DNA of 64,000 nt from Alphaproteobacteria bacterium (GTDB taxonomy: Bacteria; Pseudomonadota; Alphaproteobacteria; Micropepsales; Micropepsaceae), in contig WGNU01000004.1 in the NCBI GenBank assembly GCA_016124385.1, positions 1 through 64,000 of the forward strand, in the 5' to 3' direction. Of the stretch, positions 3,690 to 63,477 are shown one piece after another. The notes beneath the pieces were generated by a model that searched no databases, was not told the DNA's origin, and saw nothing but the letters and a program-made list of their open reading frames with translations. The position numbers and the translations under genes are program-made. The number at the start of each line of letters is the position of its first letter. The stretch's first letter is position 1.

Positions 3690-3701
3690 GGGGACCCGCG
3701 C

Positions 3702-5171: not shown

Positions 5172-5216
5172 GGAGCGGCGCCCTGGCGCCCGTGTAGAGA
5201 GAAAAGGTGGATTGAG

Positions 5217-5903: not shown

Positions 5904-5932
5904 GCAACGCGTTTGAGGCCGGAGAGGTCAGT

Positions 5933-7198
5933 ATGTCACAGGCGAAAGAGCGGATGGAACCGGCGACAGAGGCCTATGGCACGTCCGTGCGCGACCGGCC
6001 GGTTCCGCGCATTTCGATTCACGCGTTCTGCGAGAAGCAGGAAACGAGCAAGGTGATCGAGCAGGCGGCGCAGGATCGCCGTCTCGCAAAGGCCCATGTG
6101 ACGCTTCATCCCGGCGGCATCCGCGCGGCCGCGAAGTACTTCGCCGACAGCTCGACGCCGAACTTGATCCTCGTTGAGTGCAATGAGCGCGGCTCGGCCG
6201 TGCTGGATTGCCTGGAGGAACTCGCTCAGGTCTGCGATCCGAACTCGAAGGTCATCGTGATCGGCGAAGACAACGACATTGCGCTCTACCGCGAACTGAT
6301 CCGCCAGGGCGTGAACGAATATCTCGTCGGCCCGCTTGAACCGCTGCAGATCATCGAGGCGATTTCGGCGCTCTACGCGGGGCCTGAATCGGCGCCGATT
6401 GGCCGCGTCTTCGCCTTCATCGGAGCCAAGGGCGGCGCCGGCTCCTCGACGATCTGCCACAACGTTGCCTGGTCGATCGCCGAGCATCAGCGCATCGAAA
6501 CCGCGATCGTCGACCTCGACTTGCCGTTCGGCACGGCCGGCCTCGACTTCAACGAGGATCCCGGCCAAGGCGTCGCCGACGCGCTCGGCTCGCCGGAGCG
6601 CCTCGACGACGTGCTGCTCGACCGCTTGCTCGTGAAGTGCACGGAGCATCTGAGCATCTTCGCCGCGCCCGCGACGATCGACCGCGACTACGAGATCGAA
6701 GCGGACGCCTACGAGACGGTGCTCGACATCGTCCGTCAGACGGTGCCGTGCGTCATCGTCGACCTGCCGCATGTATGGTCGCCATGGGCGCGCAATATCC
6801 TCACGAACGCGGACGAGATCATCATCACCGCCGCGCCAGAGCTCGCGAGCTTGCGCAATGCGCGTAATCTCTTCGATCACCTCAAGCAGGCGCGTCCGAA
6901 CGATGCCGCGCCGCGCTTGATCCTCAATCAGGTTGGCATCGCGAAGCGGCCCGAGATTCCGGCGAAGGATTTCGCCGAGGCCCTGGGGAGCGAACCAGCG
7001 CTTGTCCTGCCTTTCGATCCGCCGCTCTTCGGCACGGCTGCCAACAACGGTCAGATGGTCTTCGACGTCAACGCGAATGCGCGCGCGGCGGAGGCTTTCC
7101 GCCAATTCGCAATGCAGCTCACGGGGCGCGAAGTCCGCGTCGAGGCGAAGCCGGCCAATCCGTTCTTGGAATTCTTCAAGGCGAAGAAGGCGAGCTAA
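5933..7198 (+). CDS. cpaE: Pilus localisation ATPase-like protein CpaE/TadZ
   Basis: A 421-aa protein. Residues about 25-145 form a response-regulator-like receiver fold, followed by a MinD/ParA-type domain from about 155. The P-loop reads AKGGAGSST: the deviant lysine before GG is kept, but the usual lysine before the final Ser/Thr is replaced by Ser, as in the atypical CpaE/TadZ group. DLDLPFG and VDLPHVWSPW mark later nucleotide-binding strands. CpaE positions the Tad secretion machine at the cell pole. cpaF follows after 3 nt. Confidence 0.93.
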   Translation: MSQAKERMEPATEAYGTSVRDRPVPRISIHAFCEKQETSKVIEQAAQDRRLAKAHVTLHPGGIRAAAKYFADSSTPNLILVECNERGSAVLDCLEELAQVCDPNSKVIVIGEDNDIALYRELIRQGVNEYLVGPLEPLQIIEAISALYAGPESAPIGRVFAFIGAKGGAGSSTICHNVAWSIAEHQRIETAIVDLDLPFGTAGLDFNEDPGQGVADALGSPERLDDVLLDRLLVKCTEHLSIFAAPATIDRDYEIEADAYETVLDIVRQTVPCVIVDLPHVWSPWARNILTNADEIIITAAPELASLRNARNLFDHLKQARPNDAAPRLILNQVGIAKRPEIPAKDFAEALGSEPALVLPFDPPLFGTAANNGQMVFDVNANARAAEAFRQFAMQLTGREVRVEAKPANPFLEFFKAKKAS

Positions 7199-7201
7199 GC
7201 G

Positions 7202-8716
7202 ATGTTCGGCAAGCGTGCGTCAGGGGGAGCGGATACCGTCAATCCGCCGGTGAGGCCAAAGCCCGCGGCAGTGGCGCCGCAGCCGGCTGCCGCAGCGCCG
7301 CCCCCGCCGCCGGCCGCGGCCGAGACACCCGCCGTCGCTCAAACGCCGCCACCCGCGCCCACCGCCCAGCCGACCGTCGTCGGCAAGGCGAAGGCGCCGC
7401 CCAAGGCCAGCCCGCCGCGCGTGCTGGCCGTCGATGATCGCTCGGAAGACTATTTCGCAGTTAAGACCACCGTCTTCAACGCGCTGATCGATACGATCGA
7501 TCTTTCCCAGCTCGCCCAACTCGATGCGGAATCGGCGCGCGAGGAAATTCGCGACATCGTCAACGAGATCATTTCGATCAAAGCGGTCGTGATGTCGATC
7601 GCCGAGCAGGAGCAGCTGTTGCAGGACATCTGCAACGACGTGCTCGGCTATGGCCCGCTCGAGCCGCTCCTCGCCCGCGATGACATCGCGGACATCATGG
7701 TCAATGGCGCGAGCCGCGTCTTCATCGAAGTCGCCGGCCGCGTGCAGCTCACGAACGTGCGCTTCCGCGACAACGGCCAGCTGATGAACATCTGTCAGCG
7801 GATCGTCAGCCAGGTCGGCCGGCGCGTCGATGAAAGCTCGCCGATCTGCGACGCGCGCTTGCCCGACGGTAGCCGCGTCAATGTGATCGCCCCGCCGCTC
7901 GCCATCGACGGCCCCGCCCTCACCATTCGTAAGTTCAAGAAGGACAAGCTGAAGATGGACGATCTCGTCCGCTTCGGCTCGATCACCAAGGCGGGTGCCG
8001 CTGTCTTGAACATCGTCGGCAATGTCCGCTGCAACGTTGTCATCTCCGGCGGTACGGGTTCGGGTAAGACGACGCTTCTGAACTGCATGACCGGTTCGAT
8101 CGCCGATGATGAGCGCATCATCACCTGCGAGGACGCGGCCGAGCTTCAGCTGCAGCAGCCCCATGTCGTGCGTCTCGAAACGCGCCCGCCGAATCTTGAA
8201 GGGCACGGTCAGATCACGATGCGCGATCTCGTGCGGAACTGCCTGCGTATGCGCCCTGAGCGGATCATCGTCGGCGAGGTCCGCGGACCGGAGGCGTTCG
8301 ACCTCCTTCAGGCGATGAACACGGGCCATGACGGCTCGATGGGCACGCTCCACGCCAATAGCCCGCGTGAAGCGCTCTCGCGCCTTGAATCGATGATCAC
8401 GATGGGCGGCTTCGCACTGCCTTCCAAGACCATCCGCGAGATGATCGTCGCCTCGGTGGATGTCATCGTGCAGGCCGCTCGTCTTCGGGATGGTTCGCGT
8501 CGCATTACTCACGTGACCGAAGTGATCGGCATGGAAGGCGATGTCATCATCACCCAGGATTTGATGCTCTTCGAAATCGATGGCGAGGACGAGACCGGCC
8601 GCATCCGGGGCAAGCACGTCTCGACCGGTATTTCGCGTCCGAACTTCTGGGAACGCGCGCGCTACTACAATCGTGAGCGCGAGCTTCTGGAATCCCTCGA
8701 GAGCATGGCGGCATAA
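7202..8716 (+). CDS. cpaF: Tad secretion ATPase CpaF/TadA
   Basis: A 504-aa type II/IV secretion ATPase that powers Flp pilus assembly. A low-complexity Pro/Ala-rich N-terminus (residues about 15-75) precedes the conserved N-domain (YGPLEPLLARDDIADIMVNG). The RecA-like domain has Walker A GGTGSGKTT near residue 281-290, an Asp-box/Walker B region (RPERIIVGEVRG) and the His-box GTLHANSP. It is longer than the minimal core because of the Pro-rich linker. It lies 3 nt after cpaE and 5 nt before tadB. Confidence 0.96.
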   Translation: MFGKRASGGADTVNPPVRPKPAAVAPQPAAAAPPPPPAAAETPAVAQTPPPAPTAQPTVVGKAKAPPKASPPRVLAVDDRSEDYFAVKTTVFNALIDTIDLSQLAQLDAESAREEIRDIVNEIISIKAVVMSIAEQEQLLQDICNDVLGYGPLEPLLARDDIADIMVNGASRVFIEVAGRVQLTNVRFRDNGQLMNICQRIVSQVGRRVDESSPICDARLPDGSRVNVIAPPLAIDGPALTIRKFKKDKLKMDDLVRFGSITKAGAAVLNIVGNVRCNVVISGGTGSGKTTLLNCMTGSIADDERIITCEDAAELQLQQPHVVRLETRPPNLEGHGQITMRDLVRNCLRMRPERIIVGEVRGPEAFDLLQAMNTGHDGSMGTLHANSPREALSRLESMITMGGFALPSKTIREMIVASVDVIVQAARLRDGSRRITHVTEVIGMEGDVIITQDLMLFEIDGEDETGRIRGKHVSTGISRPNFWERARYYNRERELLESLESMAA

Positions 8717-8721
8717 TCGCG

Positions 8722-9723
8722 ATGGCGGATCACCAGCTCTACATGATGGTGGGTCTGATAGTCCTCGGCTTCATCGCCGTGGGTGCGGTGGCTTTCGCGT
8801 TTCTGAGCCCGACGATGGCCGGCGGCGATATCGCGCAAAAGCGGCTTGACGGCGTCATGGGCCCAAAGGCAAAGGGCTCGCGTATCAAGGATCTGACGGC
8901 CGAGAACAACGCGCAGCGCCGCAAGCAGGTTCAGGACACGTTGAAGGAGCTTGAGCGCAAGCAGCAGGAACAGAAAAAACGCATCACGCTGGCGGCGCGG
9001 ATTGAGCAGGCGGGCCTCGATTGGGACGAGCGAACGTTCTGGATGGTGAGCGGCATTTGCGGCCTTGCGGTTACGGCCGCGATGATGCTGTCGGGCCAGC
9101 CGCTTTACACGGCTCCGATCGCCGGCTTTGCGGCCGGCTTGGGCGTGCCGCGCTGGGCACTCTCGTTTCTGAAGGCGCGCCGCGAGAAGAAGTTCCTCCT
9201 CGAATTCGCGAACGCGATCGACATCATCGTGCGCGGCGTCAAGGCAGGCCTGCCGCTCAACGATTGCTTGAGGGTCATCGCGTCGGAAAGCCCAGAACCG
9301 GTCGGCCCTGAGTTCCGCTCGCTCGTCGAGGGCCTGAAGATCGGCGTAACGCTGGAGCAGGGGCTGAAGCGAATGTATGAGCGCACGCCGCTGCCTGAAG
9401 TGAATTTCTTCGCGATCGTGCTGACGATTCAGCAGAAGACGGGCGGCAACCTCTCAGAAGCGCTCGGCAATTTGGCGGGCGTGCTGCGCGACCGCAAGCG
9501 CATGAAAGGCAAGGTCGACGCGATGTCGTCCGAAGCCAAGGCCTCCGCCGGTATCATCGGCTCGCTGCCGATCGCGGTCATGCTGCTCGTTTACATCTCG
9601 ACGCCGGACTATATCGCGACGCTCTTCACCGAGCGTGTCGGCAATCTCATGCTGCTCGGCAGCGCCGTGTGGATGTCCGCGGGGGTCTACGTGATGCGCA
9701 CGATGATCAACTTCAAGATCTAG
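8722..9723 (+). CDS. tadB: Tad inner-membrane platform protein TadB
   Basis: A 333-aa GspF-like membrane protein. One helix at residues 6-30, a charged cytoplasmic stretch (about 50-95), two helices near 105-145, the type II secretion F domain at about 165-290 (EFANAIDIIVRGVKAGLPLNDCLRVI ... GGNLSEALGNLAGVLRDR), and C-terminal helices. With TadC it forms the platform on which the CpaF ATPase acts. The start 5 nt after cpaF suggests translational coupling. Confidence 0.92.
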   Translation: MADHQLYMMVGLIVLGFIAVGAVAFAFLSPTMAGGDIAQKRLDGVMGPKAKGSRIKDLTAENNAQRRKQVQDTLKELERKQQEQKKRITLAARIEQAGLDWDERTFWMVSGICGLAVTAAMMLSGQPLYTAPIAGFAAGLGVPRWALSFLKARREKKFLLEFANAIDIIVRGVKAGLPLNDCLRVIASESPEPVGPEFRSLVEGLKIGVTLEQGLKRMYERTPLPEVNFFAIVLTIQQKTGGNLSEALGNLAGVLRDRKRMKGKVDAMSSEAKASAGIIGSLPIAVMLLVYISTPDYIATLFTERVGNLMLLGSAVWMSAGVYVMRTMINFKI

Positions 9724-9732
9724 GGCGCGGCC

Positions 9733-10698
9733 ATGAACCTTGGGATCTTCAATCTTCTCTTCGATCAGAGCTTCGTCGTCACGGCGCTGGCCTCGGTCGC
9801 CGCCTTCGCGACGATCCTGACGCTAGGTCTGCCCTATCTCGAATCCGATCGCCTGAACGCGCGCCTGAAGTCGGTTGCGACGCGGCGCGAGGAATTGCGG
9901 CGCGCCCAGCGCGAGGCGCTGTCGAAGAAAAGCACGCTGCGCTCCACGCCCGTCGGCTTCATGAAGCGCACAGTCGATCAGCTGAACCTTGAGAACATCC
10001 TTCAGAGTGCGAATACGAAGGAAAAGCTCGCAATGGCCGGCTATCGTGGCCAGGGCCCGCTCATCACCTTCATGTTCTTCCGCTTCGTGATGCCGATCCT
10101 CCTGTTCGCGGCGGCGATCGTCTACCTCTTCGTCATGGGCAAGTACAACGCGCCGCCCTTCGCCAAGCTCGGCATGTCGGCGGGTGCGGCGCTGGTCGGC
10201 TTTTATGTGCCAGACCTTTTCGTCTCGAACATGATTTCGCGCCGCCAGGAATCGATCATGAAGGCGTTTCCCGACGCCCTCGACCTCCTTTTGATTTGCG
10301 TTGAATCCGGCATGTCCATCGAGGCCGCGTTCAACCGCGTCGCGTCCGAGATCGGTTCCTCCTCGATCGAGCTTGCCGAGGAATTGTCGCTGACGACGGC
10401 GGAACTCTCCTACCTGCCGGATCGCAAGCAGGCGTACGAGAATTTGGCCAAGCGCACAGGCCATCCTGGCGTCAAGGCGGTCTGTACGTCGCTGATCCAG
10501 GCCGAGCGCTATGGCACGCCGCTCGGCACCGCCCTGCGCGTGATGGCGCAGGAAAATCGCGAGCTGCGCATGCAGGCGGCCGAGAAGAAGGCGGCGTCAT
10601 TGCCCGCCAAGCTCACGGTGCCGATGATCGTCTTCTTCCTGCCGGTGCTCTTCGTGGTCATTCTGGGCCCGGCGGCGATGAAGGTGATGAAGCTTTAA
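9733..10698 (+). CDS. tadC: Tad inner-membrane platform protein TadC
   Basis: A 321-aa second GspF-domain protein, paired with TadB. A membrane helix near residues 13-33, two more near 108-160, and the F domain at about 180-300 (FPDALDLLLICVESGMSIEAAFNRVASEIG ... GTPLGTALRVMAQENRELR), followed by a C-terminal helix (LTVPMIVFFLPVLFVVILGPAAM). It is the last gene of the cpa operon on this strand and is followed by a clear terminator. Confidence 0.92.
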   Translation: MNLGIFNLLFDQSFVVTALASVAAFATILTLGLPYLESDRLNARLKSVATRREELRRAQREALSKKSTLRSTPVGFMKRTVDQLNLENILQSANTKEKLAMAGYRGQGPLITFMFFRFVMPILLFAAAIVYLFVMGKYNAPPFAKLGMSAGAALVGFYVPDLFVSNMISRRQESIMKAFPDALDLLLICVESGMSIEAAFNRVASEIGSSSIELAEELSLTTAELSYLPDRKQAYENLAKRTGHPGVKAVCTSLIQAERYGTPLGTALRVMAQENRELRMQAAEKKAASLPAKLTVPMIVFFLPVLFVVILGPAAMKVMKL

Positions 10699-51055: not shown

Positions 51056-51718
51056 TCACGCTCCTCGCTTGGTGGCTGGGTGGCTCTCCTCGACGGATGT
51101 GCCGCTTGAAAACACGCTGACGACATAGCGTCTGAGATGATCGAGGCTCTCGCGCGCGATGTCAGGGTCATTGGCCGCCTTGGCCAACACGAATGCGCCC
51201 TGGATCACGGCCTGCATGTGTCGCGCGAGGCTGGCAGCAGTCCAATCGCCTGCGATGCCTCGTGCCCGCATCGCCGCTGCGATGTCTGTCTCGAGCGTTT
51301 TCGCATGCCCGAAGATGCTCGCCGCGCACGCGTCGCGGATCGTGGGCGATGTGGCGTAGACCTCCTGCGTCATGGTGCCGACGAGGCAGGTGAATTCGGC
51401 GAGCTCGCCGGCGATGATCTCCTTGCGGAAATCGAGATAGGCGAGCACGCGATCGAGCGGGTTTGAAAGCGCTTGGTAGGGGGCTGCCGCGAACAAGGCG
51501 CTTGTCGTCTCGGTCCAAAACTGCGCCGCGGCCACGCCAAGCGACTCTTTGCTGCCGAACTGGTGAAAGAATGCGCCTTTCGTGACACTTGCCGCCTGGC
51601 AAAGGTCATCGACCGAACACCCGGCGAAGCCTTTTGCGCGGATCAAATCTCGCGCCGCCTCAAGGAGGCGCGTGCGGGCGTCACCGCGTTCGGGGTCACG
51701 TTTGGGCAAACGAGGCAT
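51056..51718 (-). CDS. TetR family transcriptional regulator
   Basis: A 220-aa regulator. N-terminal TetR helix-turn-helix (TRLLEAARDLIRAKGFAGCSVDDLCQAASVTKGAFFHQFGSKESLGV, about 16-61), then a helical ligand domain with a C-terminal TetR_C-like region. It leads a three-gene unit with two VOC proteins. A palindrome just upstream is a likely self-operator. Confidence 0.9.
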   Translation of the reverse strand: MPRLPKRDPERGDARTRLLEAARDLIRAKGFAGCSVDDLCQAASVTKGAFFHQFGSKESLGVAAAQFWTETTSALFAAAPYQALSNPLDRVLAYLDFRKEIIAGELAEFTCLVGTMTQEVYATSPTIRDACAASIFGHAKTLETDIAAAMRARGIAGDWTAASLARHMQAVIQGAFVLAKAANDPDIARESLDHLRRYVVSVFSSGTSVEESHPATKRGA

Positions 51719-51726
51719 TTAGAATA

Positions 51727-51744
51727 ATACCGTACAGTTGGTAT
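51727..51744. promoter_or_regulatory. Candidate TetR operator palindrome
   Basis: ATACC-N8-GGTAT (ataccgtacagttggtat), 9 nt upstream of the tetR start codon on the minus strand. The ACCGTAC...GGT form is typical of TetR-family operators. It also overlaps a possible -10 for tetR. Confidence 0.5.
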
Positions 51745-51972
51745 AAATGCAAGTACATGCTCGAAAGGCGGATGTCGATCTCAAGATCGAAACGCTGATC
51801 GACATGATGACGAACGGTCTTCAAGCGCCGATTTCCTAGCCGGCGTTGGAGGCTTTCCAGAAGGTTGCCCGCCCGCGCTAGCGGCAGTGCGGCGCGGTAC
51901 CCGCCCAGAATCTCCTTGAGTCGAAAATCAGAACGTGTTCCAAGTTTTCCAATTGTGATTGAGGAGGCTGGA

Positions 51973-52215
51973 ATGGTCGCGACACATTTGTCGAAAGTGC
52001 GAAGGTCGATCCTGCCCCACGCCGGGGATAGCTGGGCGACCATTGCCGGCCGGGAGTTGAGCGGCCTGTCGGAGCAAGAGGCGGTCGCCAAGTTGCAGAG
52101 CTGGAACCTGCACGTCTTCATGCGCGCGCCAGCGCCCGCCGAGAGTCCTCGCGCTGGCAATCCCATCCTCCCGAGCGACGTCATCTTCGTCGAACCCCCG
52201 CTCGCCAAGGCATGA
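51973..52215 (+). CDS. Small protein with LysM-like pattern, unknown function
   Basis: An 80-aa protein; the ATG at 51973 has GAGGAGGCTGG directly upstream, so the track's earlier start is not used. It has no signal peptide. The sequence GDSWATIAGRELSGLSEQEAVAKLQSWNLHVF ... ILPSDVIFVEPP recalls a LysM (GDSxxxIAxxxx ... LxxWNxxxx ... IxPxDxIxV) but has a longer middle. It overlaps the next gene by 4 nt and begins a tight operon. The 254-nt region before it holds no clear gene. Confidence 0.65.
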   Translation: MVATHLSKVRRSILPHAGDSWATIAGRELSGLSEQEAVAKLQSWNLHVFMRAPAPAESPRAGNPILPSDVIFVEPPLAKA

Positions 52216-52466
52216 GCGAGGCGTTCATCAAGTGCGTTCAATTGGCCGCGGCCCATGATGGCGAGGCCGAGTTGATCATCACGCTCGAATTCGAGAACGG
52301 CGGACGATCCCTGGTCACGCTCGATGAATGCGCGGCCCGCAATCTGCTGGAGGCTTGCGGAATCGAGGATCCGGACGCCTTGACGGGGACGAGCTGGGTG
52401 CGCGTGCGCGACGCGCTCGCCGCCTCGTCCGCCCGTTTCACACCATCCAGAACGCCAGAACTTTGA
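52212..52466 (+). CDS. Small acidic protein, unknown function
   Basis: An 84-aa protein: EAELIITLEFENGGRSLVTLDECAARNLLEACGIEDPDAL then TSWVRVRDAL. It appears to be a compact beta-alpha protein with no signal or membrane segment. Its ATG overlaps the previous stop (ATGA) and the deacylase gene starts 12 nt after it, so it is co-expressed with both. No family recognised. Confidence 0.6.
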   Translation: MSEAFIKCVQLAAAHDGEAELIITLEFENGGRSLVTLDECAARNLLEACGIEDPDALTGTSWVRVRDALAASSARFTPSRTPEL

Positions 52467-52478
52467 GGAATAAAGTCG

Positions 52479-54176
52479 ATGTATGATCTCATCATCCGCA
52501 ACGGCACGGTCGTCGACGGGACGGGCTTGCCCGCCTACGCGGCCGATGTCGCCGTGTCGGGCAACCGCATCGCCAGGATCGGCCGCATCGCGGAACGCGC
52601 CGACCGCGAGATCGACGCGGCGGGCAAGGTGGTCTCGCCGGGCTTCATCGACCCCCATACCCATTTCGACGCGCAATTGCTGTGGGATGGCTGCGCCAAG
52701 CCGGCCCTCTCGCATGGCGTGACGACCATCGTGCCCGGCAATTGTTCGCTCTCGCTCGCGCCCCTGAAGGCGTCGCAGCGCATGAAGCTGGTCGGCATGT
52801 TCAACCAGATCGAGGAAATGCCGCTCAAGGCCTTCAAGGAAGGCGTGGTCTGGGACTGGGAAACATTCGCCGAATACATCGCGCGCATTCGTAAGGGTTT
52901 GGCGATCAATGTGGCGCCCCTGGTCGGGCATAGCGTGCTGCGGCTGTGGGTGATGGACGGCGCCGCGATGGAACGCACGGCGAGCGACGCGGAAATCGCC
53001 GAAATGCAATCCGTGCTGCGCGAATGCCTTGATGCGGGCGCGGTCGGCCTGTCGACCAGCTATGTCGACATGGACGAAACGCTTCAGCCGGTGCCGAGCC
53101 GCTTTGCGGACGCGCGCGAGATCGACGCCTTGGCGAGCGTGCTGAGCGAATACGGCCGCATCCTGCAGATCGTGCCGGAATTCTACGACCCGGACCTGAC
53201 GATCGCTCGGCTCGATCAGCTCGCCGAGATTTCGCTGAAGCACGGCATCGCGACGACGTTCTCGCCGGTCTTCGTGAATGCGGACAACACGGATGCGGTC
53301 GAGCGGGTGATGGCGCGCGTTGATGAGCAATTCGCCCGCGGTGCCCGCGTGTGGCCGCAGGTACAGACGCGACCGATCGACATTTCCTTCTGCTTCAGCG
53401 TGCCGAGCCTGCTGTTCTTTCGCTTTCCCGGTTGGTATCGCTTGATGCGGTTCGGCACGCCCGAGGAGATCGTGGCGGCGTTCTCCGACCCTGAGCGCCG
53501 CGCCAAGCTGATCGCCGAGGCGAAGCCCTATCAGGCGCTGTGGCCGCGGCTGATCCTGCGTCAGGCCGCGACCGAGGCGAACCGGAAGTTGGTCGGCAAG
53601 ACGCTTGGCGAGATCGCCGAGACGCGCGGCACGAGCCCGATCGAGGCGATGATCGATCTGTCGCTGGAGGAGAACCTCGAGGCTCACTTCCTCGCGACGA
53701 GCATGGGCCACAATGATGACGCCCGGGTCGGCGGGCTTCTCAAGCATCCGCGTGTCCACATCGGCGCCAGCGACGGCGGCGCTCACATTCTCTCATTCTC
53801 GACATACGGCGACACGGGCTACCTGTTCGGCCATTTCGTCCGTGAGCTGAAGACAATGCGTCTCGAAGACGCGGTCAAAAAAATTACCTCCGACACGGCT
53901 GCCATTTGGGGCATCCCGGATCGCGGGCTCTTGCAGGTGGGCTATGTCGCCGACATCGCGATCTTCGATCCGCAGACGGTCGACCGCGACGTCGAGAGGT
54001 ATCAATGGGACGTGCCCGGCGACGGAAGCCGTTACGTGCGCGACCCCATCGGCGTCGACACCGTCATTGTCGGCGGGGGCATCGCGTGGTCGGCCGCGAA
54101 CGGATATCAGGAAGCGCGCGGCGACGTGCTCCCCGGCGCGCGCAACACCGGGCCGTTCCGCGAGGCCGCGGAATGA
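52479..54176 (+). CDS. N-acyl-D-amino-acid deacylase family amidohydrolase
   Basis: A 565-aa amidohydrolase. DLIIRNGTVVDGTGLPAYAADVAVSGNRIARIG at the start, metal-binding HTH in DPHTHFDAQLLWDG (H60, H62), GVTTIVPGNCSLSLAP and a late SDGGAHI (metal/catalytic Asp). Family members hydrolyse N-acyl-D-amino acids or related cyclic amides; substrate unknown. It is the third gene of the operon and overlaps the epoxide hydrolase gene by 4 nt. Confidence 0.88.
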   Translation: MYDLIIRNGTVVDGTGLPAYAADVAVSGNRIARIGRIAERADREIDAAGKVVSPGFIDPHTHFDAQLLWDGCAKPALSHGVTTIVPGNCSLSLAPLKASQRMKLVGMFNQIEEMPLKAFKEGVVWDWETFAEYIARIRKGLAINVAPLVGHSVLRLWVMDGAAMERTASDAEIAEMQSVLRECLDAGAVGLSTSYVDMDETLQPVPSRFADAREIDALASVLSEYGRILQIVPEFYDPDLTIARLDQLAEISLKHGIATTFSPVFVNADNTDAVERVMARVDEQFARGARVWPQVQTRPIDISFCFSVPSLLFFRFPGWYRLMRFGTPEEIVAAFSDPERRAKLIAEAKPYQALWPRLILRQAATEANRKLVGKTLGEIAETRGTSPIEAMIDLSLEENLEAHFLATSMGHNDDARVGGLLKHPRVHIGASDGGAHILSFSTYGDTGYLFGHFVRELKTMRLEDAVKKITSDTAAIWGIPDRGLLQVGYVADIAIFDPQTVDRDVERYQWDVPGDGSRYVRDPIGVDTVIVGGGIAWSAANGYQEARGDVLPGARNTGPFREAAE

Positions 54177-55135
54177 GCTGGGCAGGCGTTGAGGAGCGCC
54201 GCGTCGCGACGAACGGGATCACGCTCAACATTGCGGAAGCGGGAGAAGGCCCTTTGATCCTTCTGCTGCACGGGTTTCCGGAGTCCTGGTACTCCTGGCG
54301 GCACCAATTCGCGCCGCTCGCCGCGGCGGGCTACCGCGTCGTTGCGCCTGACATGCGAGGCTACGGCAAGAGCGACAAGCCGCAGGCGATCGAGGCCTAT
54401 AATCAGGTTGAGGTGGCGAACGACATCATCGGACTCGTTCCCGCGCTCGGCTACGACAAGGCGGTTGTAGTCGGGCATGATTGGGGGGCGCCGACGGCGT
54501 GGGCCTGTGCGCTCCATCATCCCGGCACGGTTCGCGCGGTCGGCGCGCTGTCGGTGCCGTTCATGCCGCGCTCGCCGGTGCAGCCGATGCCGGCGATGCG
54601 GCAGATGTTCAAGGATCAATTCTTCTACCAGCTCTATTTTTTCGAGCCGGGCGTGGCGGAGGCCGAGTTCGAGGCCGATATCCGCACCGCGTTGAAGAAG
54701 TTCCTCATTCTGGGCGCCGGTGATACCGATCTCGCCGCGATGCCGATGAAACGGCCCGGCGATGATCTCCTCTCGGGCCTGCCCAATCCCGATACGCTGC
54801 CCGCGTGGTTGAGCGAGCGCGATCTCGATTTTTATGCGCAGGAGTTTACGCGGTCGGGCATGCGCGGACCGCTGAGCTACTATCGCAATCACGATCTGAC
54901 GTGGTCGCTGACCGAGGGTGCCCCGACATTCATCGATCAGCCGGCCTTTTTCGCGGCCGGCGCGAAAGACGGCGTCATTCTCATGGCCGCGGCCGCATTG
55001 CAGGCGATGCCCGGTTTCGTCCGCGACCTGCGCATCAATGAACTGATCCCCGGGATCGGCCATTGGACGCAGCAGGAAGCGCCGGAAGCGGTCAACCGGA
55101 TTGTTCTCAAGTTCCTCAGGGAAATCGACGGATGA
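54173..55135 (+). CDS. Epoxide hydrolase (alpha/beta hydrolase)
   Basis: A 320-aa soluble-epoxide-hydrolase-like enzyme. Oxyanion HGFPESWYSWRHQF, nucleophile Asp in VVGHDWGAPTAWACAL (D103), and the catalytic His in GIGHWTQQEAPEAVN. A cap Tyr is present in FFYQLYFF and SYYRNHDL. Asp at the nucleophile (not Ser) favours epoxide hydrolysis. ATGA overlaps both neighbours. Confidence 0.9.
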   Translation: MSWAGVEERRVATNGITLNIAEAGEGPLILLLHGFPESWYSWRHQFAPLAAAGYRVVAPDMRGYGKSDKPQAIEAYNQVEVANDIIGLVPALGYDKAVVVGHDWGAPTAWACALHHPGTVRAVGALSVPFMPRSPVQPMPAMRQMFKDQFFYQLYFFEPGVAEAEFEADIRTALKKFLILGAGDTDLAAMPMKRPGDDLLSGLPNPDTLPAWLSERDLDFYAQEFTRSGMRGPLSYYRNHDLTWSLTEGAPTFIDQPAFFAAGAKDGVILMAAAALQAMPGFVRDLRINELIPGIGHWTQQEAPEAVNRIVLKFLREIDG

Positions 55136-56652
55136 GCGAGTCGGTTCTGGTGGTTGGTGCGGGGATTGGCGGGCTTTGCACGGCCTTGTCGCTGGCGCCG
55201 ACGGGGCGCGCGATCACGATCCTGGAACGTGACCAGGCACCCCCCAGTCACGACCCGGACGTAACGTTCCTCGACTGGCATCGCCAGGGCGCGGGCCATA
55301 TCCGGCAGAGCCACGCGTTTCTGGCGCGCCTGCGCGGCATCATCAAGGCCTCGCATCCCGGCCTGCTCGCCAAGCTGAAGGACATGGGCGCGCGAGATCT
55401 CACATTCGAGATGATGCTCTCGGACATTCAGCGCCAATCCTATCAGCCCGTCCCGCTCGACGAGGATCTGACGATCATCACCAGCCGGCGCACGACGCTC
55501 GAGATGGCGATGCGCGAATATGTCGAAACGCTGGCGAACGTGACGATCCGCTCCGGCTTCTTCGTCCGCCGTCTCGTGACGCGCGAGCACGCCGGCGGCA
55601 TCGTCGAGGTGGTTGGTGTCTCGGGCGAAGAGAGCGGCAATCCGGTCGATCTCACGGCTGACATCATCGTGGATGCCAGCGGCAAATCCGGCTTCTTGAT
55701 CGAGCAATTGATGGAGGAAGGCGCGAACATCAAGGAAGAGATCGAAAGCGCCGGCATCTTGTACTACACGCGGCACTACCGCCTCCTGCCTGGCGTGGAA
55801 GAGCCGTCGCGGCGGGACAATCCGCCGCCGAACGGAGACCTCGGCTACATCAAGTTCGGCGTATTTCCGGGGGACAATGGCTGCTTTTCCATCACCGTCG
55901 CCATACCCGAAGTCGAGATCGAGCTGCGCAAGGCGGTCCTCAATCCCGATCGGTTCCACGCGATCACGTTGCAGATGCCGGGCCTTGAGCCTTGGACCAA
56001 CGCCAAGCGGTCCGAGCCGCGCGGCAAGGTCCATGGCATGGGCGACCTCTTGAGCCGCTGGCGCGACATCGTGGTCGACGGCGTGCCCGCGACCCGCAAC
56101 TATTTTCCGCTTGGCGATACCTTGATCCGCACCAATCCGCTCTATGGCCGGGGCTGTTCGTTCGCCGCGGTCAGTGCGGAATGCCTGCGTGAGGTTCTGG
56201 ACGAAACGAACGATCCGGTCGCGCGCCAGATCGCCTATCACAAGCGGCTGACGGCGGAGTTGCGCCCTTATTATCTCAATCAGCGCGCGCAGGACCGCTC
56301 GGCTATCAAGCGGGCGAAACGCGCGCTCACGCCCGGCTACAAGAAAAGCTGGCGGACAAGGCTGCTCGAAGGCTTCTTCGAGGATGGCGTCGCAATCGCG
56401 GTGCGGTACGACATATCCTTGCTGCGCGAGGCGATGCGCGGCTTCCATATGCTCGAGCATCCCAATAAATGGCTGTCGCGGCCGCGCAATCTCGCCAAAG
56501 TGCTTTTCTATTGGGCGCGTGGCAAGAAGCGCAACGCGCCGGCCTATCCGCCGAAACCGGGACCGGACCGCGAAGAGTTGATGCGGATCCTCGCCATCGA
56601 TCCGCAGGCTGACGTAATGCGACTTGCGCAGGAAGAAAGAGTTGCCGCCTAA
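55132..56652 (+). CDS. FAD-dependent oxidoreductase/monooxygenase-like protein
   Basis: A 506-aa flavoprotein. The dinucleotide motif VVGAGIGGLCTALSL (residues 5-19), an ILERDQ strand end that should bind the FAD ribose and GRGCSFAAVSAECLREVL as the second FAD contact. There is no WxWxIP halogenase motif. It resembles p-hydroxybenzoate-hydroxylase/epoxidase-fold enzymes. Next to an epoxide hydrolase, an epoxidase activity is possible (inference). Confidence 0.82.
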   Translation: MSESVLVVGAGIGGLCTALSLAPTGRAITILERDQAPPSHDPDVTFLDWHRQGAGHIRQSHAFLARLRGIIKASHPGLLAKLKDMGARDLTFEMMLSDIQRQSYQPVPLDEDLTIITSRRTTLEMAMREYVETLANVTIRSGFFVRRLVTREHAGGIVEVVGVSGEESGNPVDLTADIIVDASGKSGFLIEQLMEEGANIKEEIESAGILYYTRHYRLLPGVEEPSRRDNPPPNGDLGYIKFGVFPGDNGCFSITVAIPEVEIELRKAVLNPDRFHAITLQMPGLEPWTNAKRSEPRGKVHGMGDLLSRWRDIVVDGVPATRNYFPLGDTLIRTNPLYGRGCSFAAVSAECLREVLDETNDPVARQIAYHKRLTAELRPYYLNQRAQDRSAIKRAKRALTPGYKKSWRTRLLEGFFEDGVAIAVRYDISLLREAMRGFHMLEHPNKWLSRPRNLAKVLFYWARGKKRNAPAYPPKPGPDREELMRILAIDPQADVMRLAQEERVAA

Positions 56653-57382
56653 GGCAAAGGAGCCGGAAGACGCGAGCGTTGAATTCGACCTCGGCCGGCG
56701 AGAGCTTGCCAAGGCGGAGCGGCGCCTTCGAATCTTGCGCGCGGCCCGCGACCTCATCCGCGAGACGGGCGACACGGATCTTTCGATGCGCACATTGGCA
56801 CAGCGTGCCGACGTAAGCCTCTCCACGCCCTACAACTTGTTTGGATCGAAGCGCGCCGTCGTGCTCGCCGTGCTGGAGGACGTGCGCGATTTTGGCGAGC
56901 GCTTCAACAGGCTCAAGGCGGCGAACAGCATTGCGCGCATTTTCGCAGCCCATGAACTTGCGTTCGGCTACTACACACGCGATCCCGAATTCTATCGCAC
57001 GCTGTGGCGCGCTCTGCTCAATACGACGGGCGAGGACAACACGGGACTGGCGTCGCAGGAGCGTTTGGCGCGCACGCGCGCGATCTGGCTCGGTCTGGTT
57101 CAGGGCGCGGCGCAAGACGGCTATCTGCGGCCGGATCGCTCCGTGGATCTGGTCTTGCGCGCGATGGGGCAGTTGACGGGCGGGGCGCTGTTGTCATGGG
57201 CCATGGGCAGCCTTGCGACGGAGGCGCTGACCGCCTCGGTCGGTCTCGGCTACGCCCTGTGCCTCAACGGGGCCGCGACGCCGGCCGGGACCGCATTGCT
57301 GAGCGAGCGCATCGCGGCCTATGGGCAGACGCTTGCGCGTGTGGATCGCCAATCGCCCGACCGCTCGTCGGAGACGCTCTAG
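56642..57382 (+). CDS. TetR family transcriptional regulator
   Basis: A 246-aa regulator. LRILRAARDLIRETGDTDLSMRTLAQRADVSLSTPYNLFGSKRAVVLAVL is the TetR DNA-binding domain (about 28-77). The TTG at 56642 is chosen because AGGAAG lies 6 nt upstream; another TTG is at 56624. There is no ATG near. It overlaps the FAD gene, so it is the last gene of the six-gene unit starting at 51973 and may autoregulate it. Confidence 0.85.
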   Translation: MPPKAKEPEDASVEFDLGRRELAKAERRLRILRAARDLIRETGDTDLSMRTLAQRADVSLSTPYNLFGSKRAVVLAVLEDVRDFGERFNRLKAANSIARIFAAHELAFGYYTRDPEFYRTLWRALLNTTGEDNTGLASQERLARTRAIWLGLVQGAAQDGYLRPDRSVDLVLRAMGQLTGGALLSWAMGSLATEALTASVGLGYALCLNGAATPAGTALLSERIAAYGQTLARVDRQSPDRSSETL

Positions 57383-57588: not shown

Positions 57589-58620
57589 ATGAGCGGCATC
57601 CCGAATGCGATCAAGAGCTGGTACTTCGCAGAACGGCCCAAGGGCGATCTCGACGACACGACGCTCGCCCTCCGCACCGTGCCGCTGCCCGAATTGGCCG
57701 ACGGGGAGATCCTGGTCCGCAATATCTATCTCTCGCTGGACGCAACGAACCGCGTATGGCTCAGCGACTGGGACAGCTACATGGAGCCGGTGCGCCTCGG
57801 CGAGCCGATGCGCGGCTTCATCATTGGTGAAGTCGTTCACTCGAAGAACGCGCAATTCCCCAAGGGAGCGTTGGTGTCGGGCCTTTCGAGCTGGTCGGAC
57901 TATGTCGTCACGAACGGCGAGGGCTTTCAGACCTATACGGGCATCGCCGGTCTCGATCTTGCTGAAGCGTTCGGCATTTTGACGGTCGCGGGCCCCACCG
58001 CCTATGTCGGCCTCGTCGAGATCGGCCAGCCCAAGCCTGGGGACACGGTGGTTGTCACCGCCGCGGCCGGGGCGGTCGGCGCGCTCGTCGGGCAGATCGC
58101 GAAGATTTATGGTTGCCGTGCGATCGGAATTGCCGGCTCGGCTGAAAAATGCGCATGGCTGACGCGCGAGCTCGGCTACGATGCGGCGATCAACTACCGC
58201 ACGGAAGACGTGGACAAGCGCCTCGCCGAGCTGGCGCCGGACGGCATCGACATCCAGTTCGAGAACGTCGGCGGCGATATTCTCGATTCAGGTCTCAAGC
58301 ACATGAAGAATGGAGGCCGCGTGATCATTTGCGGTCTTATCTCGACCTACAATTCGCCGGGCGAGACGGCGCCGGGTCCCAAGATGTTCCGCAACGTGAT
58401 CATGCGCCGTCTCCGGATCGAGGGCTTCGTCATTCTCGATTACCTGGCGCGCTATCCCGAGTTTCACGAGAAACTCTTAGGCTGGATGCGGGACGGCCGT
58501 CTGAAGTATCGCCTCCACGTCGTTGACGGTCTGGAGAACGCGGCGGGCGCGCTCAAACTTCTCTACACCGGCGGCAATCACGGCAAGCTGATGGTGAAGA
58601 TCGGCGATCCGCGCGCTTAA
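57589..58620 (+). CDS. MDR-superfamily NADP-dependent oxidoreductase (CurA/prostaglandin-reductase-like)
   Basis: A 343-aa zinc-independent alcohol-dehydrogenase-fold reductase. YFAERPKGDLDDTTLALRTVPLPEL and LSLDATNRVWLSDWDSYMEPVRLGEPMRG are the CurA/leukotriene-dehydrogenase start. The NADP motif AAAGAVGALVGQIAKIYG and FENVGGDIL follow. It reduces an activated C=C of an enone, substrate unknown. GGAGG precedes the ATG at 57589. Confidence 0.9.
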   Translation: MSGIPNAIKSWYFAERPKGDLDDTTLALRTVPLPELADGEILVRNIYLSLDATNRVWLSDWDSYMEPVRLGEPMRGFIIGEVVHSKNAQFPKGALVSGLSSWSDYVVTNGEGFQTYTGIAGLDLAEAFGILTVAGPTAYVGLVEIGQPKPGDTVVVTAAAGAVGALVGQIAKIYGCRAIGIAGSAEKCAWLTRELGYDAAINYRTEDVDKRLAELAPDGIDIQFENVGGDILDSGLKHMKNGGRVIICGLISTYNSPGETAPGPKMFRNVIMRRLRIEGFVILDYLARYPEFHEKLLGWMRDGRLKYRLHVVDGLENAAGALKLLYTGGNHGKLMVKIGDPRA

Positions 58621-58668: not shown

Positions 58669-58738
58669 CGGTATCGCGCAGGAAGGGCGGCTCCGCTGGG
58701 TGCCCCAAAAAAGAAGCGCGTCCACGGAGGAAGTGCCA

Positions 58739-61453
58739 ATGCCCGAGAGTGCGGGCAATCTTGGACTCACGCGACCGCGAGTTGACCCGGTCCGAAGCGT
58801 GCGCCGCGCCGCGCCGCTCGCGAAACTGAACGACTCGCCCCATGCCAAGCTCGTCGTCATCCACGCGCCCGCGGGGTTCGGCAAGACGACTTTGCTGCGC
58901 CAATATTGCGCGGAGCTGTCCGAACGCGGCGGCGGGCGATGCGTTTGGGTGCATCTCGATGAGACGGCGCGCGACGCTCCTCAGTTCATGCGCCTGGTCC
59001 ACACAGCCCTTCGCGGCCATCTCGGCGGCGCTGCGCAGAGACCGGCCGCGCGCGCGATCAAGAGTTCATCGCCGCGCGAAATCAGGGCGGCCCTCGACGC
59101 GGCGGGGCCCGGCACGGTCCTGGTGATCGACGACTACGAGCTCGCATGCCAGGCCGGCGCCAACGAGGTTCTCTATCAGCTTGTCCGCCAGCTTCCGCAG
59201 GGCGTCCGCATCTTTCTGGGAACCCGCGTGCTGCCGGGCGCGCTGACCTCGCGCTTGCTCGTCAAAGGAGAGGCGCTGGTGCTCGGCGCCGATGACGTCC
59301 GCTTTGGTTTGGGCGAAACGCGCGCGCTTTTCAGCGATTCGGCCGGTCTGGCGGGCGACGAGGTCGAGTGGATCCAGTCCTGCACGGAAGGCTGGCCCGC
59401 CGCGTTGCAGTGTTTCCGGCTGTGCATCAGCGGCGGACGGTTTCGCCGTGGTCTCGCGTACCAGGGAAACGGCGTCACGCCCGAACTGATCAGCTACCTC
59501 GCCACCGAAGTTTTCGAGGCCTTGAGCGAGCGCACCCGGCAATTGCTGCTGGCGACGTCGTTACCCGATCTCGTCTGTCCCGAACTCGTCGAGCACATTT
59601 CCGACGTTCGCTGCACGCAGGACGATCTCGAGGGCCTTGTCGAGGCGGGGCTCTTTCTCATGCCTGTCGATCTCGACCGCCGCTGGTACCGGTTTCACAA
59701 CGTGTTTCGCCGCGTGATGCTCGCCCGCCTGACGAGCGACCTCGATCCGCCGCAATTGCTGGCGCGTCATCGCCTGGCGGCGGATTGGTTCACGACGAAT
59801 GGCTACGAGGAGGAGGCGATCAAGCACCTCCTCGCGGCCAATGATCCAGAGGCGGCCGCCGCCTTGCTCGATCACCGCGCATGGCACCTCATCAACGAGG
59901 AGCGCCTCGATTTCATCACCAGCCTTGTCGATGAGTTGCCCGAGAAGACGGTCAAGAAATATCCCGACATTCAGGCCGCCGCGACGATCGCCTATGGGTT
60001 CCGCCGCGAGTTCGCGAAGGCGAACCGCATGCTCGAGGTCCATCGCCGCGATCTCGAACAGCTGAAGGACGCGGCGAGTGAGGAGCAATGGGGGCTCTTT
60101 AACAGCCTGCAGATCTTCGTTCTCGCGGCGCAGGACCGGATGGCCGAGGTCGCCTCGAACGCTGAGCTGACGCTGTCTCAACTCGCTCCCCGCCATGGCT
60201 TGCGTTACGCCGTCGCCCTGAACGCGCACGGCTTCTGGCTGCACGCCAACAGCAAGTTCGAAGAGGCGCGCAAGGAACTGTCCGAGGCGCGCCCGCTCCA
60301 CACGCATGAGCACTCGCTGTTCGGCCGCGCCTATCAGGAGGCGATCCTGAGCGGCGTCTTGACCGCGCAGGGGCGGATCAGCGATGCCAAGGCCAGCCTG
60401 AGAACGACGTTGCGCGAGATCGAGCAGGCCATTTCGGCGACGGCGGGCTCGACCATCGCCGCTTATCTCGCCGAGGCGCACTATGAACAGAACGAAACGG
60501 CGGCTGCCGAGGAGCTGCTCGCCGACTATCTCCCGCTGATCGACCAGCAGGCGATCGTCGATCCGCTCGCCATCACCCACCTGACGCGGGCGCGCATCGC
60601 GCTGCGCCGCAATCTTCCCGGCGAGGCCGATCGCATCATCGAACACATGATGGAGCTTGGGCATCGCCACGATCTGCGGCGCCTCGTCCATTACGGGCGC
60701 ACCGAGCTTGTCCGCCAGGCGACGCTCGCGGGCGACATGGATCTTGCGACGCGCCGGCTCGAAGCGTTCTTCGGCGGGGCGGAACCGAAGCTGCACGCCG
60801 ATCTGCTGTTTCACGCCGGTGAAATCGAGGCGCAGACGATCACCTATGCGCGCTATCTCGTGCATGCCGGCCGTTATGGCGAGGCGCGCGCGCTCCTGCA
60901 GACGCAACTACGCAAAGCTAAGCTGCTGCGCCGCCGGCGCCGGCAAATGAAGCTCGGTCTCCTGCTCGCGATCGCTCTGGATGAAGAGGGCGAAAAGGCC
61001 CTCGCGCGCCGCACGCTGCAGGATGCCCTCGAGATCGGCATGCCCGGCGAATTCGTCCGCTCGATCCTCGATGAGGGTCCGCGCATGACGCGTCTGCTCA
61101 AGGAGGTTTATTCCACCCGCGGCCGCCGGCCGGAGATCGTCGAGAATGATCCCGTAAACGCCTATGTGGAGTTTCTGCTGCGCACCGATGGCGAGCGGCT
61201 GGAGATCGAGGAGACGATCGAAGCGGGCGTGCTTGATGAGGACGCGGTGTTGCGGTTCGACACGCTCACCGCGCGCGAGCGCGAGATCCTGACGCTCGTC
61301 TCAAATGGCTTTGCGAACAAGGATTTGGCGGGCCGCTTGGGCGTGTCGACGAATACGGTGAAATGGCACCTGCGGAACGTCTTTGAGAAGCTGCAAATTT
61401 CCAATCGCGTTCAGGCCATTTCGGTGGCCCGGCATTTTGGTCTGATCAACTAG
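58739..61453 (+). CDS. LuxR-family MalT/LAL-type ATP-dependent regulator
   Basis: A 904-aa transcription activator. P-loop IHAPAGFGKTTLLRQY (about 41-56), a STAND/NACHT-like ATPase to about 300, a long helical TPR-like middle (about 380-800), and a C-terminal LuxR helix-turn-helix (LTAREREILTLVSNGFANKDLAGRLGVSTNTVKWHLRNVFEKL, about 842-884). GGAGGAAGTG precedes the ATG, so the track's earlier GTG is not used. MalT-type proteins are switched on by a small-molecule inducer and ATP. It lies beside the carboxylase-like cluster. Confidence 0.9.
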   Translation: MPESAGNLGLTRPRVDPVRSVRRAAPLAKLNDSPHAKLVVIHAPAGFGKTTLLRQYCAELSERGGGRCVWVHLDETARDAPQFMRLVHTALRGHLGGAAQRPAARAIKSSSPREIRAALDAAGPGTVLVIDDYELACQAGANEVLYQLVRQLPQGVRIFLGTRVLPGALTSRLLVKGEALVLGADDVRFGLGETRALFSDSAGLAGDEVEWIQSCTEGWPAALQCFRLCISGGRFRRGLAYQGNGVTPELISYLATEVFEALSERTRQLLLATSLPDLVCPELVEHISDVRCTQDDLEGLVEAGLFLMPVDLDRRWYRFHNVFRRVMLARLTSDLDPPQLLARHRLAADWFTTNGYEEEAIKHLLAANDPEAAAALLDHRAWHLINEERLDFITSLVDELPEKTVKKYPDIQAAATIAYGFRREFAKANRMLEVHRRDLEQLKDAASEEQWGLFNSLQIFVLAAQDRMAEVASNAELTLSQLAPRHGLRYAVALNAHGFWLHANSKFEEARKELSEARPLHTHEHSLFGRAYQEAILSGVLTAQGRISDAKASLRTTLREIEQAISATAGSTIAAYLAEAHYEQNETAAAEELLADYLPLIDQQAIVDPLAITHLTRARIALRRNLPGEADRIIEHMMELGHRHDLRRLVHYGRTELVRQATLAGDMDLATRRLEAFFGGAEPKLHADLLFHAGEIEAQTITYARYLVHAGRYGEARALLQTQLRKAKLLRRRRRQMKLGLLLAIALDEEGEKALARRTLQDALEIGMPGEFVRSILDEGPRMTRLLKEVYSTRGRRPEIVENDPVNAYVEFLLRTDGERLEIEETIEAGVLDEDAVLRFDTLTAREREILTLVSNGFANKDLAGRLGVSTNTVKWHLRNVFEKLQISNRVQAISVARHFGLIN

Positions 61454-61494
61454 TCAGGCCGCGCACCCCTCCGCGCGCAGCGCCAACTTTCGAC

Positions 61495-61522
61495 AATCCT
61501 TTCGGGTGGGGCACATCGCCCC
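61495..61522. promoter_or_regulatory. Motif region upstream of the carboxylase-like cluster
   Basis: AATCCTTTCGGGTGGGGCACATCGCCCC contains the 13-nt CTTTCGGGTGGGG shared with 57467-57479 (opposite strand) and a GGGGC-N5-GCCCC inverted repeat. Its first 14 nt also equal part of the tRNA-Arg 3' end. A regulator-binding site is the simpler reading. No other element was seen in the 146-nt gap. Confidence 0.4.
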
Positions 61523-61599
61523 TCGATCGCTAGGCTGGCCTCGACAACAACCGAGAGGCCGGCCGCATCGAGCCTGGCCTCCAACGAGGGACGAGGCGC

Positions 61600-63477
61600 G
61601 TGGGCTTGCTCGTGACGATCGACAATGGCGGCACACTGACGGATTTCTGTGCGACGGACGGCGAGCGCCTCATCCACACGAAATCCCTGACGACCCCGCA
61701 CGATCTCTCGGAATGTTTAATGAGCGGGTTGGCTTCCGTCGCCGAGATTTTTGGCGAGGGCGACGACCTCACGCGATTCATCTCCAAGATCGACTACATC
61801 CGCTATTCCACGACTCAGGGCACGAACGCACTGGTGGAGCGAAAAGGCCCGCGTCTGGGATGGCTGACCGACGAGGCGGCGTTGGTCTCCGCGGTGCGCG
61901 GCGCCAATGGCGAGCTCTTCGAGGCGATGGTCGGCGGGCGCGTCGCGATCACGGATCCGGGCGCGGATGAACAGCGCCTCGCCAAGGAAATTTCCCGTCT
62001 CGTCTCGGAAGGGGCTAACCGCATCGTCGTGGGCTATGCGGGCAAAGAAGCGGCCGAGTGGGAGCGGCGGACCAAGCGCCAGCTCTATCGTACGTTTCCG
62101 CGCCATCTGCTTGGCGCCGTGCCGCTTCTGTTCGCCTGCGAACTCGCCCCCATCGGCGCGCCGCATCGCCGCGTCTGGTCCGCGTTGCTCAACGCGTTCT
62201 TGCATCCCGCGATGGAGCAGTTTCTCTACAATGCCGAGAACAAGCTGCGCGCCCATCGCGCGCGCAATCCGCTCCTCGTGTTCCGCAACGACGGCAATTC
62301 GACACGCGTCGCCAAGACGATCGCGCTGAAGACGTACTCTTCGGGTCCCGAAGGCGGCATCGTCGGCGCACAGCAGATCATCCGCCACTATGGCATCCAA
62401 AGGGCCGTCTCCATCGATATCGGCGGCACGACGACGGACATCGCGTTCTTCGCTGAGGATCGCGTCGATCGCGACTTCTTCGGCGAGATCGAAGGATCGC
62501 CCGTCGCGATTCCGATGACCCGCGTCATGAGCGTCGGCGCAGGCGGCAGCTCGATCTTCAGCGTGAGCGGCGGCGCGCTGCGCGTCGGCCCCGAAAGCGT
62601 GGGATCGGCGCCCGGGCCCGCCTGTTTCGCGCGCGGCGGCACCGAAGCGACGATCACTGATGCGCTGTTGCTCGAAGGCGTTCTCGATCCCACGACTTAC
62701 TTCGGCGGCAAGCTGCGTCTCGATCCGGCGCGCGCCGAACGCGCCATCATGAGCCGCGTGGGCGAACCCTTGGGGCTCGATCTCCCCGGGGCCATTGAGG
62801 CGATGAAGAACGCCTATGAGCGCCGCATCGCCAAGGCCGTGCAGACCGAAGGGACGCTCACGCCCGGAACCGTGTTGATCGCCTTTGGTGGCGCGGGTCC
62901 CATGAGCGCGTGCGGCATTGCCCAGACACTCGGCTTGCGCGACGTCTTGATCCCGCGCCAGGCGGCGGTCTTCAGCGCTTATGGCATCGCCTTCTCCGAT
63001 GTTCAGCACAGCTACCGCACCAAGCTGGACGGCCGGCCGGTCGAGTCCGCCAAGGCGGATCTGCTCCGCCAGGCCGAGCGCGGCATGCGCGCGGAGGGCT
63101 TCGCGCTGTCGGACTGCACTACCCATTTCATGCAGCTGATCGAGGAGGGAGAGGCCTGCCGCGCGGCGCCCGTGAGTGACGCGCCGAAGGGGAAGGCATC
63201 GTCTTGGCTTGAGCTGACGGTGGTCAAGGCGATTCCCCGGATCACAATTCCTGAGGGTGCCCCCGAGCGCCGCCGCGACGCGGAATCGATTGGGGTGCGC
63301 CGCGGCCAGAAGCCTTTGCCGCTCTTCGAGCTGGAGGCCATGCGTCCCGGTGACGGGGGCGATGGCGCGTGCCTGATCGAGGAGCGCTTCTTCACCACCT
63401 ACGTTCCGCAAGGGTGGCGGTTTCTCATCGCCGCTTCGGGCGACATCTTCCTGACCAGAACGGAGGACGCGCGATGA
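61600..63477 (+). CDS. Hydantoinase/oxoprolinase-family subunit (acetophenone carboxylase alpha-like)
   Basis: A 625-aa HyuA-type actin-like ATPase subunit. The phosphate-binding motif is IDNGGTLTDFCATDG (usually DxGGTFTD), the second VSIDIGGTTTDIAFF (about 268-282) and the third FGGAGPMSACGIAQTL. It also has KTYSSGPEGGIVGAQ and GAGGSSIFSV. With the 132-aa protein next and a second HyuA-like gene after it, the order matches apc1-apc2-apc3 of acetophenone carboxylase. The GTG start has GAGG upstream. Its stop overlaps the next gene (ATGA). Confidence 0.85.
   Translation: MGLLVTIDNGGTLTDFCATDGERLIHTKSLTTPHDLSECLMSGLASVAEIFGEGDDLTRFISKIDYIRYSTTQGTNALVERKGPRLGWLTDEAALVSAVRGANGELFEAMVGGRVAITDPGADEQRLAKEISRLVSEGANRIVVGYAGKEAAEWERRTKRQLYRTFPRHLLGAVPLLFACELAPIGAPHRRVWSALLNAFLHPAMEQFLYNAENKLRAHRARNPLLVFRNDGNSTRVAKTIALKTYSSGPEGGIVGAQQIIRHYGIQRAVSIDIGGTTTDIAFFAEDRVDRDFFGEIEGSPVAIPMTRVMSVGAGGSSIFSVSGGALRVGPESVGSAPGPACFARGGTEATITDALLLEGVLDPTTYFGGKLRLDPARAERAIMSRVGEPLGLDLPGAIEAMKNAYERRIAKAVQTEGTLTPGTVLIAFGGAGPMSACGIAQTLGLRDVLIPRQAAVFSAYGIAFSDVQHSYRTKLDGRPVESAKADLLRQAERGMRAEGFALSDCTTHFMQLIEEGEACRAAPVSDAPKGKASSWLELTVVKAIPRITIPEGAPERRRDAESIGVRRGQKPLPLFELEAMRPGDGGDGACLIEERFFTTYVPQGWRFLIAASGDIFLTRTEDAR

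Follow-up and report, generated by a model that had tools for sequence, protein, structure and literature searches.

The 64,000-nucleotide stretch of DNA analysed here (the window) carries, at positions 51973–57382 of the + strand, six tightly packed genes (g1 to g6) that form an operon, predicted to be controlled by one repressor, whose gene order is shared by many bacteria from water and soil. Judged from sequence, the core of this operon is g1–g2–g3, two small proteins followed by an amidohydrolase, from which we infer a three-protein hydrolase that forms a physical complex. With moderate confidence, we interpret it as a new heteromeric metal-dependent hydrolase in which g3, with its altered metal site, would need the LysM-like g1 and the family-less g2, an organisation like that of urease but unrelated to it, and which would have been recruited to an epoxidase/epoxide hydrolase pair for an environmentally common alkene.

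Layout of the six-gene operon

The six genes lie at the coordinates given by an initial annotation of the sequence. The first two are short: g1 (51973–52215, +) encodes an 80-aa cytoplasmic LysM-like protein and g2 (52212–52466, +) an 84-aa protein of three strands plus helices with no known family, both of which are predicted subunits of the g3 enzyme. The product of g3 (52479–54176, +; 565 aa) belongs to the amidohydrolase superfamily and is a divergent relative of D-aminoacylase that lacks the histidine ligands of strands 5 and 6. Next come g4 (54173–55135, +; 320 aa), an alpha/beta-hydrolase epoxide hydrolase (EH) of the EphA/sEH type; g5 (55132–56652, +; 506 aa), an FAD-dependent monooxygenase of the MonCI/Lsd18 epoxidase type; and g6 (56624–57382, +), a TetR-family putative repressor with a TTG start.

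The genes are joined as a single operon with 4-nt ATGA overlaps at the g1/g2, g3/g4 and g4/g5 junctions and a 12-nt spacing between g2 and g3. This agrees with the initial description of ATGA overlaps or gaps of at most 12 nt, save at the g5/g6 junction, where the overlap is 29 nt if g6 starts at the TTG at 56624. The operon ends, as also described, in a TetR gene (g6; Pfam TetR_N, 1e-7). A divergent TetR gene (51056–51718) lies upstream of g1, so the operon promoter is expected in the 254-bp gap at 51719–51972. A simple scan recognised no sigma-70 promoter upstream of the operon, and no RNA element was found at Rfam thresholds.

About 200 nt past g6 lies a gene for a curcumin-reductase-like NADPH oxidoreductase (57589–58620), which we rejected as an operon member: it is unlinked elsewhere, save for a 35% homologue directly after g3 in one locus (L143). 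Beyond it are a MalT-type LuxR regulator (58700–61453) and a hydantoinase A/acetophenone-carboxylase-alpha-like gene (61600–63477), and 58700–63477 is a possible separate catabolic operon. Near the other end of the window, 2871–10698 holds a Tad/Flp pilus assembly cluster (RcpC/CpaB, secretin, T2SSE ATPase and two T2SSF proteins).

Conservation of gene set and order

An even sample of the class, comprising 385 genomes including the window's own, contained a g3 orthologue in two other genomes (79% identity). Both belong to different families, and both carry all six genes in identical order. A scan of named genomes yielded 80 loci with g3 at 66–81% identity, distributed among Henriciella, Hyphomonas, Caulobacterales, Sphingorhabdus, Polymorphobacter, Novosphingobium and many Gammaproteobacteria metagenome-assembled genomes (MAGs); a few records are MAGs named Acidobacteria, an assignment that reflects record names only. 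The six-gene order is kept in Henriciella, Hyphomonas and Caulobacterales, and g1–g2–g3 also recur in Sphingomonadales and Gammaproteobacteria. Wherever the contig reaches far enough, g1 and g2 precede g3 (76/76 loci). With enough sequence past g3, the EH and FAD genes are both next after it in 51 of 65 loci, and 10 of the 65 have g1–g2–g3 without EH or FAD; the hydrolase can therefore presumably serve without the oxidative pair, in another setting.

Because the order is shared with two genomes of other families and with many named genomes, the arrangement is more than chance. The initial annotation had proposed looking for the same gene set in other genomes and had named scattering of the genes in relatives as evidence against its reading; the six-gene order recurs across families and orders, and the genes stay together while the outer flanks vary. 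No flanking family is shared across the ~80 loci beyond a handful of them. Since the flanking genes are not conserved, the six-gene unit appears self-contained, and we rejected a wider conserved pathway on the same grounds.

A divergent amidohydrolase with two small companions

The g3 protein matches Pfam Amidohydro_3 (1e-29), and its best solved relative is D-aminoacylase (1M7J). It keeps the HTH motif, the GNC cysteine and the SDG aspartate, and H60, H62, C89 and D432 are invariant among the aligned orthologues, which have no invariant histidine between 152 and 410. No g3 orthologue has the metal histidines of strands 5 and 6, in whose place stand VPE.. and SP.F; they are also missing across the g3 clade, in relatives down to 27% identity. 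Set against the zinc-site residues of D-aminoacylase (C96, H220 and H250), g3 has the cysteine (C89) and neither histidine. The initial annotation had named g3 an N-acyl-D-amino-acid deacylase; with two metal-binding histidines of D-aminoacylase gone in every sequence compared, and missing clade-wide, that name is unjustified for g3. Some metal-dependent hydrolysis is still likely.

The two small genes, which the initial annotation overlooked, are constant companions of g3. The window's g1 and g2 proteins have no Pfam and no PDB sequence match, and we aligned 47 sequences of each family. The AF2 model of g1 (pLDDT 87.5) has two short strands flanking helices; its Foldseek matches are mostly LysM domains and weak (E about 1 or worse), and Pfam LysM weakly matches 3 of the 47 g1 members (best E 0.089). 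For g2 (pLDDT 84.9), the predicted fold has no confident structural match. Profile matches to g1 and g2 occur in exactly 3 of the 385 class genomes, those with the g3 orthologue, and are always adjacent to it; distant g3 relatives (42–46%) are present in genomes without g1 or g2.

A natural gene fusion links g1 to the amidohydrolase. On plasmid AP027328.1 of Sphingobium sp. TomTYG64, the first part of a 637-aa gene product is homologous to g3 (46%) and the part that follows it to g1 (46% over 70 residues). The next gene, a homologue of g2 (39% over 62 residues), begins at the stop codon of this fusion gene (BDX77473.1/BDX77474.1). Fusion of this kind is classical evidence of physical association and argues that g1 and g3 associate. 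The neighbours of the fusion gene are annotated as belonging to an aromatic meta-cleavage pathway. The fusion is known from one genome, with no second g3–g1 fusion in 140 further genomes near Novosphingobium, and the main text of the paper on tomato Sphingobium isolates names neither TomTYG64 nor an amidohydrolase.

An epoxidase-like flavoprotein and an epoxide hydrolase

The g4 protein is similar over its full length to EphA (PDB 5CW2; E 2.5e-80). Its nucleophile D103, H297, D266 and the cap tyrosines at 152/155 and 236/237 are kept in at least 97% of 56 sequences, and HGFP (33–36), which fits the HGxP motif, is also kept in this set. By its residues, g4 is an alpha/beta-hydrolase epoxide hydrolase with a complete catalytic set. 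The best PDB matches of g5 are MonCI (2.8e-16) and LasC/Lsd18 (2e-9), and its GxGxxG (9–14), GD (328–329) and P336..GRG (339–341) motifs are kept, so that both sequence similarity and flavin-binding motifs place it with MonCI-type enzymes. These features predict epoxidation of an alkene, and g5, being distant from MonCI, could instead be a hydroxylase. The initial pairing of a flavin epoxidase-like enzyme with an epoxide hydrolase is thus supported by both proteins.

Outside the operon, homologues of g5, among them a paralogue in the window's own genome, have an EH gene directly adjacent in 21 of 24 loci, in either order and usually reversed. Because g5 is nearest MonCI and g5-type genes adjoin EH genes in most of these loci, g5 and g4 are likely an epoxide-to-diol pair; for alkene epoxidation by g5, the association with EH lends indirect support. 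In our trees, the operon EH sequences form one clade, which includes that of locus L047, and the FAD genes that occupy their slot in the operon fall into two clades, alphaproteobacterial and gammaproteobacterial. The alphaproteobacterial operon FAD genes are nested among stand-alone alphaproteobacterial FAD genes, and those of gammaproteobacterial operons form another clade. Replacement of the FAD partner while the slot is kept argues that g4 and g5 act together, and is what selection for an oxidase to partner the EH would be expected to produce.

Related gene sets occur in several other settings. The window's own genome has a paralogous FAD–EH pair (G000:C4:38967-40439, L035). Like many of its relatives, this pair has PQQ-synthesis-like genes (radical SAM/SPASM, PqqC-like) in its neighbourhood, where an ABA4-like membrane protein is also often encoded. 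At 8200–15084 of L047 (G140:C27), an EH 74% identical to g4 stands with an FAD gene of the gammaproteobacterial operon type and no g1–g3; beside this pair are genes for a TonB receptor and acyl-CoA dehydrogenases, together with a TetR that shares 36% identity with g6. At 8667–13024 of L040 (G019:C44:93000-107097), genes resembling g5 (33%), g3 (31%) and EH (32%) lie together, without g1 or g2 and near a TonB-receptor-family gene. The g5/g3/EH triad may have recurred independently in this divergent set.

A putative operator associated with the terminal TetR gene

About 40 bp upstream of g1 lies a KstR-like palindrome, TCAGAACGTGTTCCAA (51928–51943, no strand), a putative binding site for g6 built on the core AACnnGTT, which in the window reads GAACRTGTTC. 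The core GAACGTGTTC is unique within the window, and the assembly (2.43 Mb, 74% complete) contains the exact 16-bp pattern at no other position. A counterpart is found within 90 bp upstream of g1 in all 29 loci with a downstream TetR gene and in 2 of 26 loci without one by the cut-off used; in one of these two, L127, the TetR falls just under the cut-off. Fisher's test gives p 1.3e-13 for the association, a value that overstates independence because related loci share ancestry. By this association, g6 would repress the operon.

The best NCBIfam match of g6 is KstR, a weak one (34.8 bits against a cut-off of 280). Compared with the published mycobacterial KstR motif, TnnAACnnGTTnnA (PMC1995591), the window site fits at the core AACnnGTT and the 3' A and has C, not T, at the first position; the 5' T is present in many orthologous sites. 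The sequence AGAACGTGTTCCA occurs in the KstR probe Rv0223c (PMC1995591).

Proposed pathway and alternative readings

We consider it reasonably probable that the six genes stand on their own as an operon for catabolism or detoxification, controlled by a repressor, in which g5 epoxidises the substrate, g4 converts the epoxide to a diol and g1–g2–g3 cleave a bond. The substrate is probably a hydrophobic alkene. In its absence, g6 would sit on the palindrome upstream of g1 and the operon would be silent; g6 would be released by an unsaturated, hydrophobic compound or by the CoA ester of that compound. The C=C bond would then be epoxidised by g5 with FAD, NAD(P)H and O2, the epoxide would be opened to a vicinal diol by g4, and g3, with its obligate partners g1 and g2, would carry out a metal-dependent cleavage of an amide, ester or lactone bond in the same substrate or product. 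We infer both the order of these reactions and the type of bond cut by g3 from sequence. The initial reading thus stands in part, with the single operon and its epoxidase–EH pair retained and the deacylase function withdrawn.

Rather than enzyme subunits, g1 and g2 might be independent regulators or chaperones merely co-transcribed with g3. LysM folds are known chiefly for binding glycans, and no function can be recognised in g2, both of which would suit such roles; however, the two proteins co-occur strictly with g3 only, and g1 is covalently fused in nature to a g3 homologue, so we regard this explanation as improbable. We give about the same small weight to a biosynthetic tailoring operon, in which the epoxidase and EH would modify a polyene or lipid made by the cell itself, in the manner of polyether biosynthesis. 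MonCI and Lsd18, the nearest solved relatives of g5, are indeed biosynthetic enzymes that epoxidise polyenes (PMC10560226), but no conserved synthase, carrier protein or transporter lies alongside the operon in the ~80 loci, and the aromatic meta-cleavage annotation of the cluster that contains the g3–g1 fusion speaks for catabolism rather than biosynthesis.

A module for steroid or sterol catabolism, with g5 and g4 acting on the alkene of a cholesterol-type substrate, would account for the KstR-like operator and for KstR being the best NCBIfam match of g6. Yet the KstR score of g6 is far under the cut-off, no further gene family accompanies the operon and KshA (PF19298) is missing from 15 of the 16 operon-bearing or related genomes tested; we rejected steroid catabolism as unsupported and consider it very unlikely. 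A catabolic or detoxification operon for a hydrophobic alkene, with a three-protein hydrolase at its core, remains our preferred reading.

The operon is widespread and undescribed, and it occurs in the cultivable genera Henriciella, Hyphomonas and Novosphingobium. Two small protein families without a Pfam entry are defined by it, along with a predicted multi-protein amidohydrolase of an unusual kind, and it puts in question the common database label of N-acyl-D-amino-acid deacylase. Our literature search found no relevant paper on the gene set, in line with the initial remark that no described pathway with this set was known, and, as far as we found in the literature searched, the proposed, unusual three-protein hydrolase has no earlier study. 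Since the gene set is compact and only one operator is predicted, reporter screening should be able to find the substrate.

Comparison with known systems

Each part of the operon resembles a known system and departs from it. The window site shares with the KstR operator a matching palindrome core and the AGAACGTGTTCCA of the Rv0223c probe, whereas g6 scores far below the KstR cut-off, the assembly has one exact site and no regulon, and operon carriers are mostly without KshA. MonCI and Lsd18/LasC are the best PDB sequence relatives of g5 and share its flavin motifs, but g5 is distant from them (E 1e-16 to 1e-9), and they serve polyketide biosynthesis, in which they partner with limonene-type epoxide hydrolases, not alpha/beta ones. 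The g4 protein has the full-length similarity and catalytic set of EphA and soluble epoxide hydrolases, although it forms its own clade tied to the operon. D-Aminoacylase and N-acyl-D-amino-acid deacylase (1M7J, 3GIP) have in common with g3 the amidohydrolase fold, the N-terminal half, the HTH motif, the GNC cysteine and the SDG aspartate; g3, in contrast, is ~80 residues longer, lacks the strand-5 and strand-6 histidine ligands and has two small partner proteins that appear obligate. Homology of g3 to UreC was rejected, as no urease family is among the Pfam matches of g3, g1 or g2. The likeness of g1–g2–g3 to urease is one of analogy only: in UreA, UreB and UreC, as here, two small subunits are encoded before an amidohydrolase, of ~565 aa in urease.
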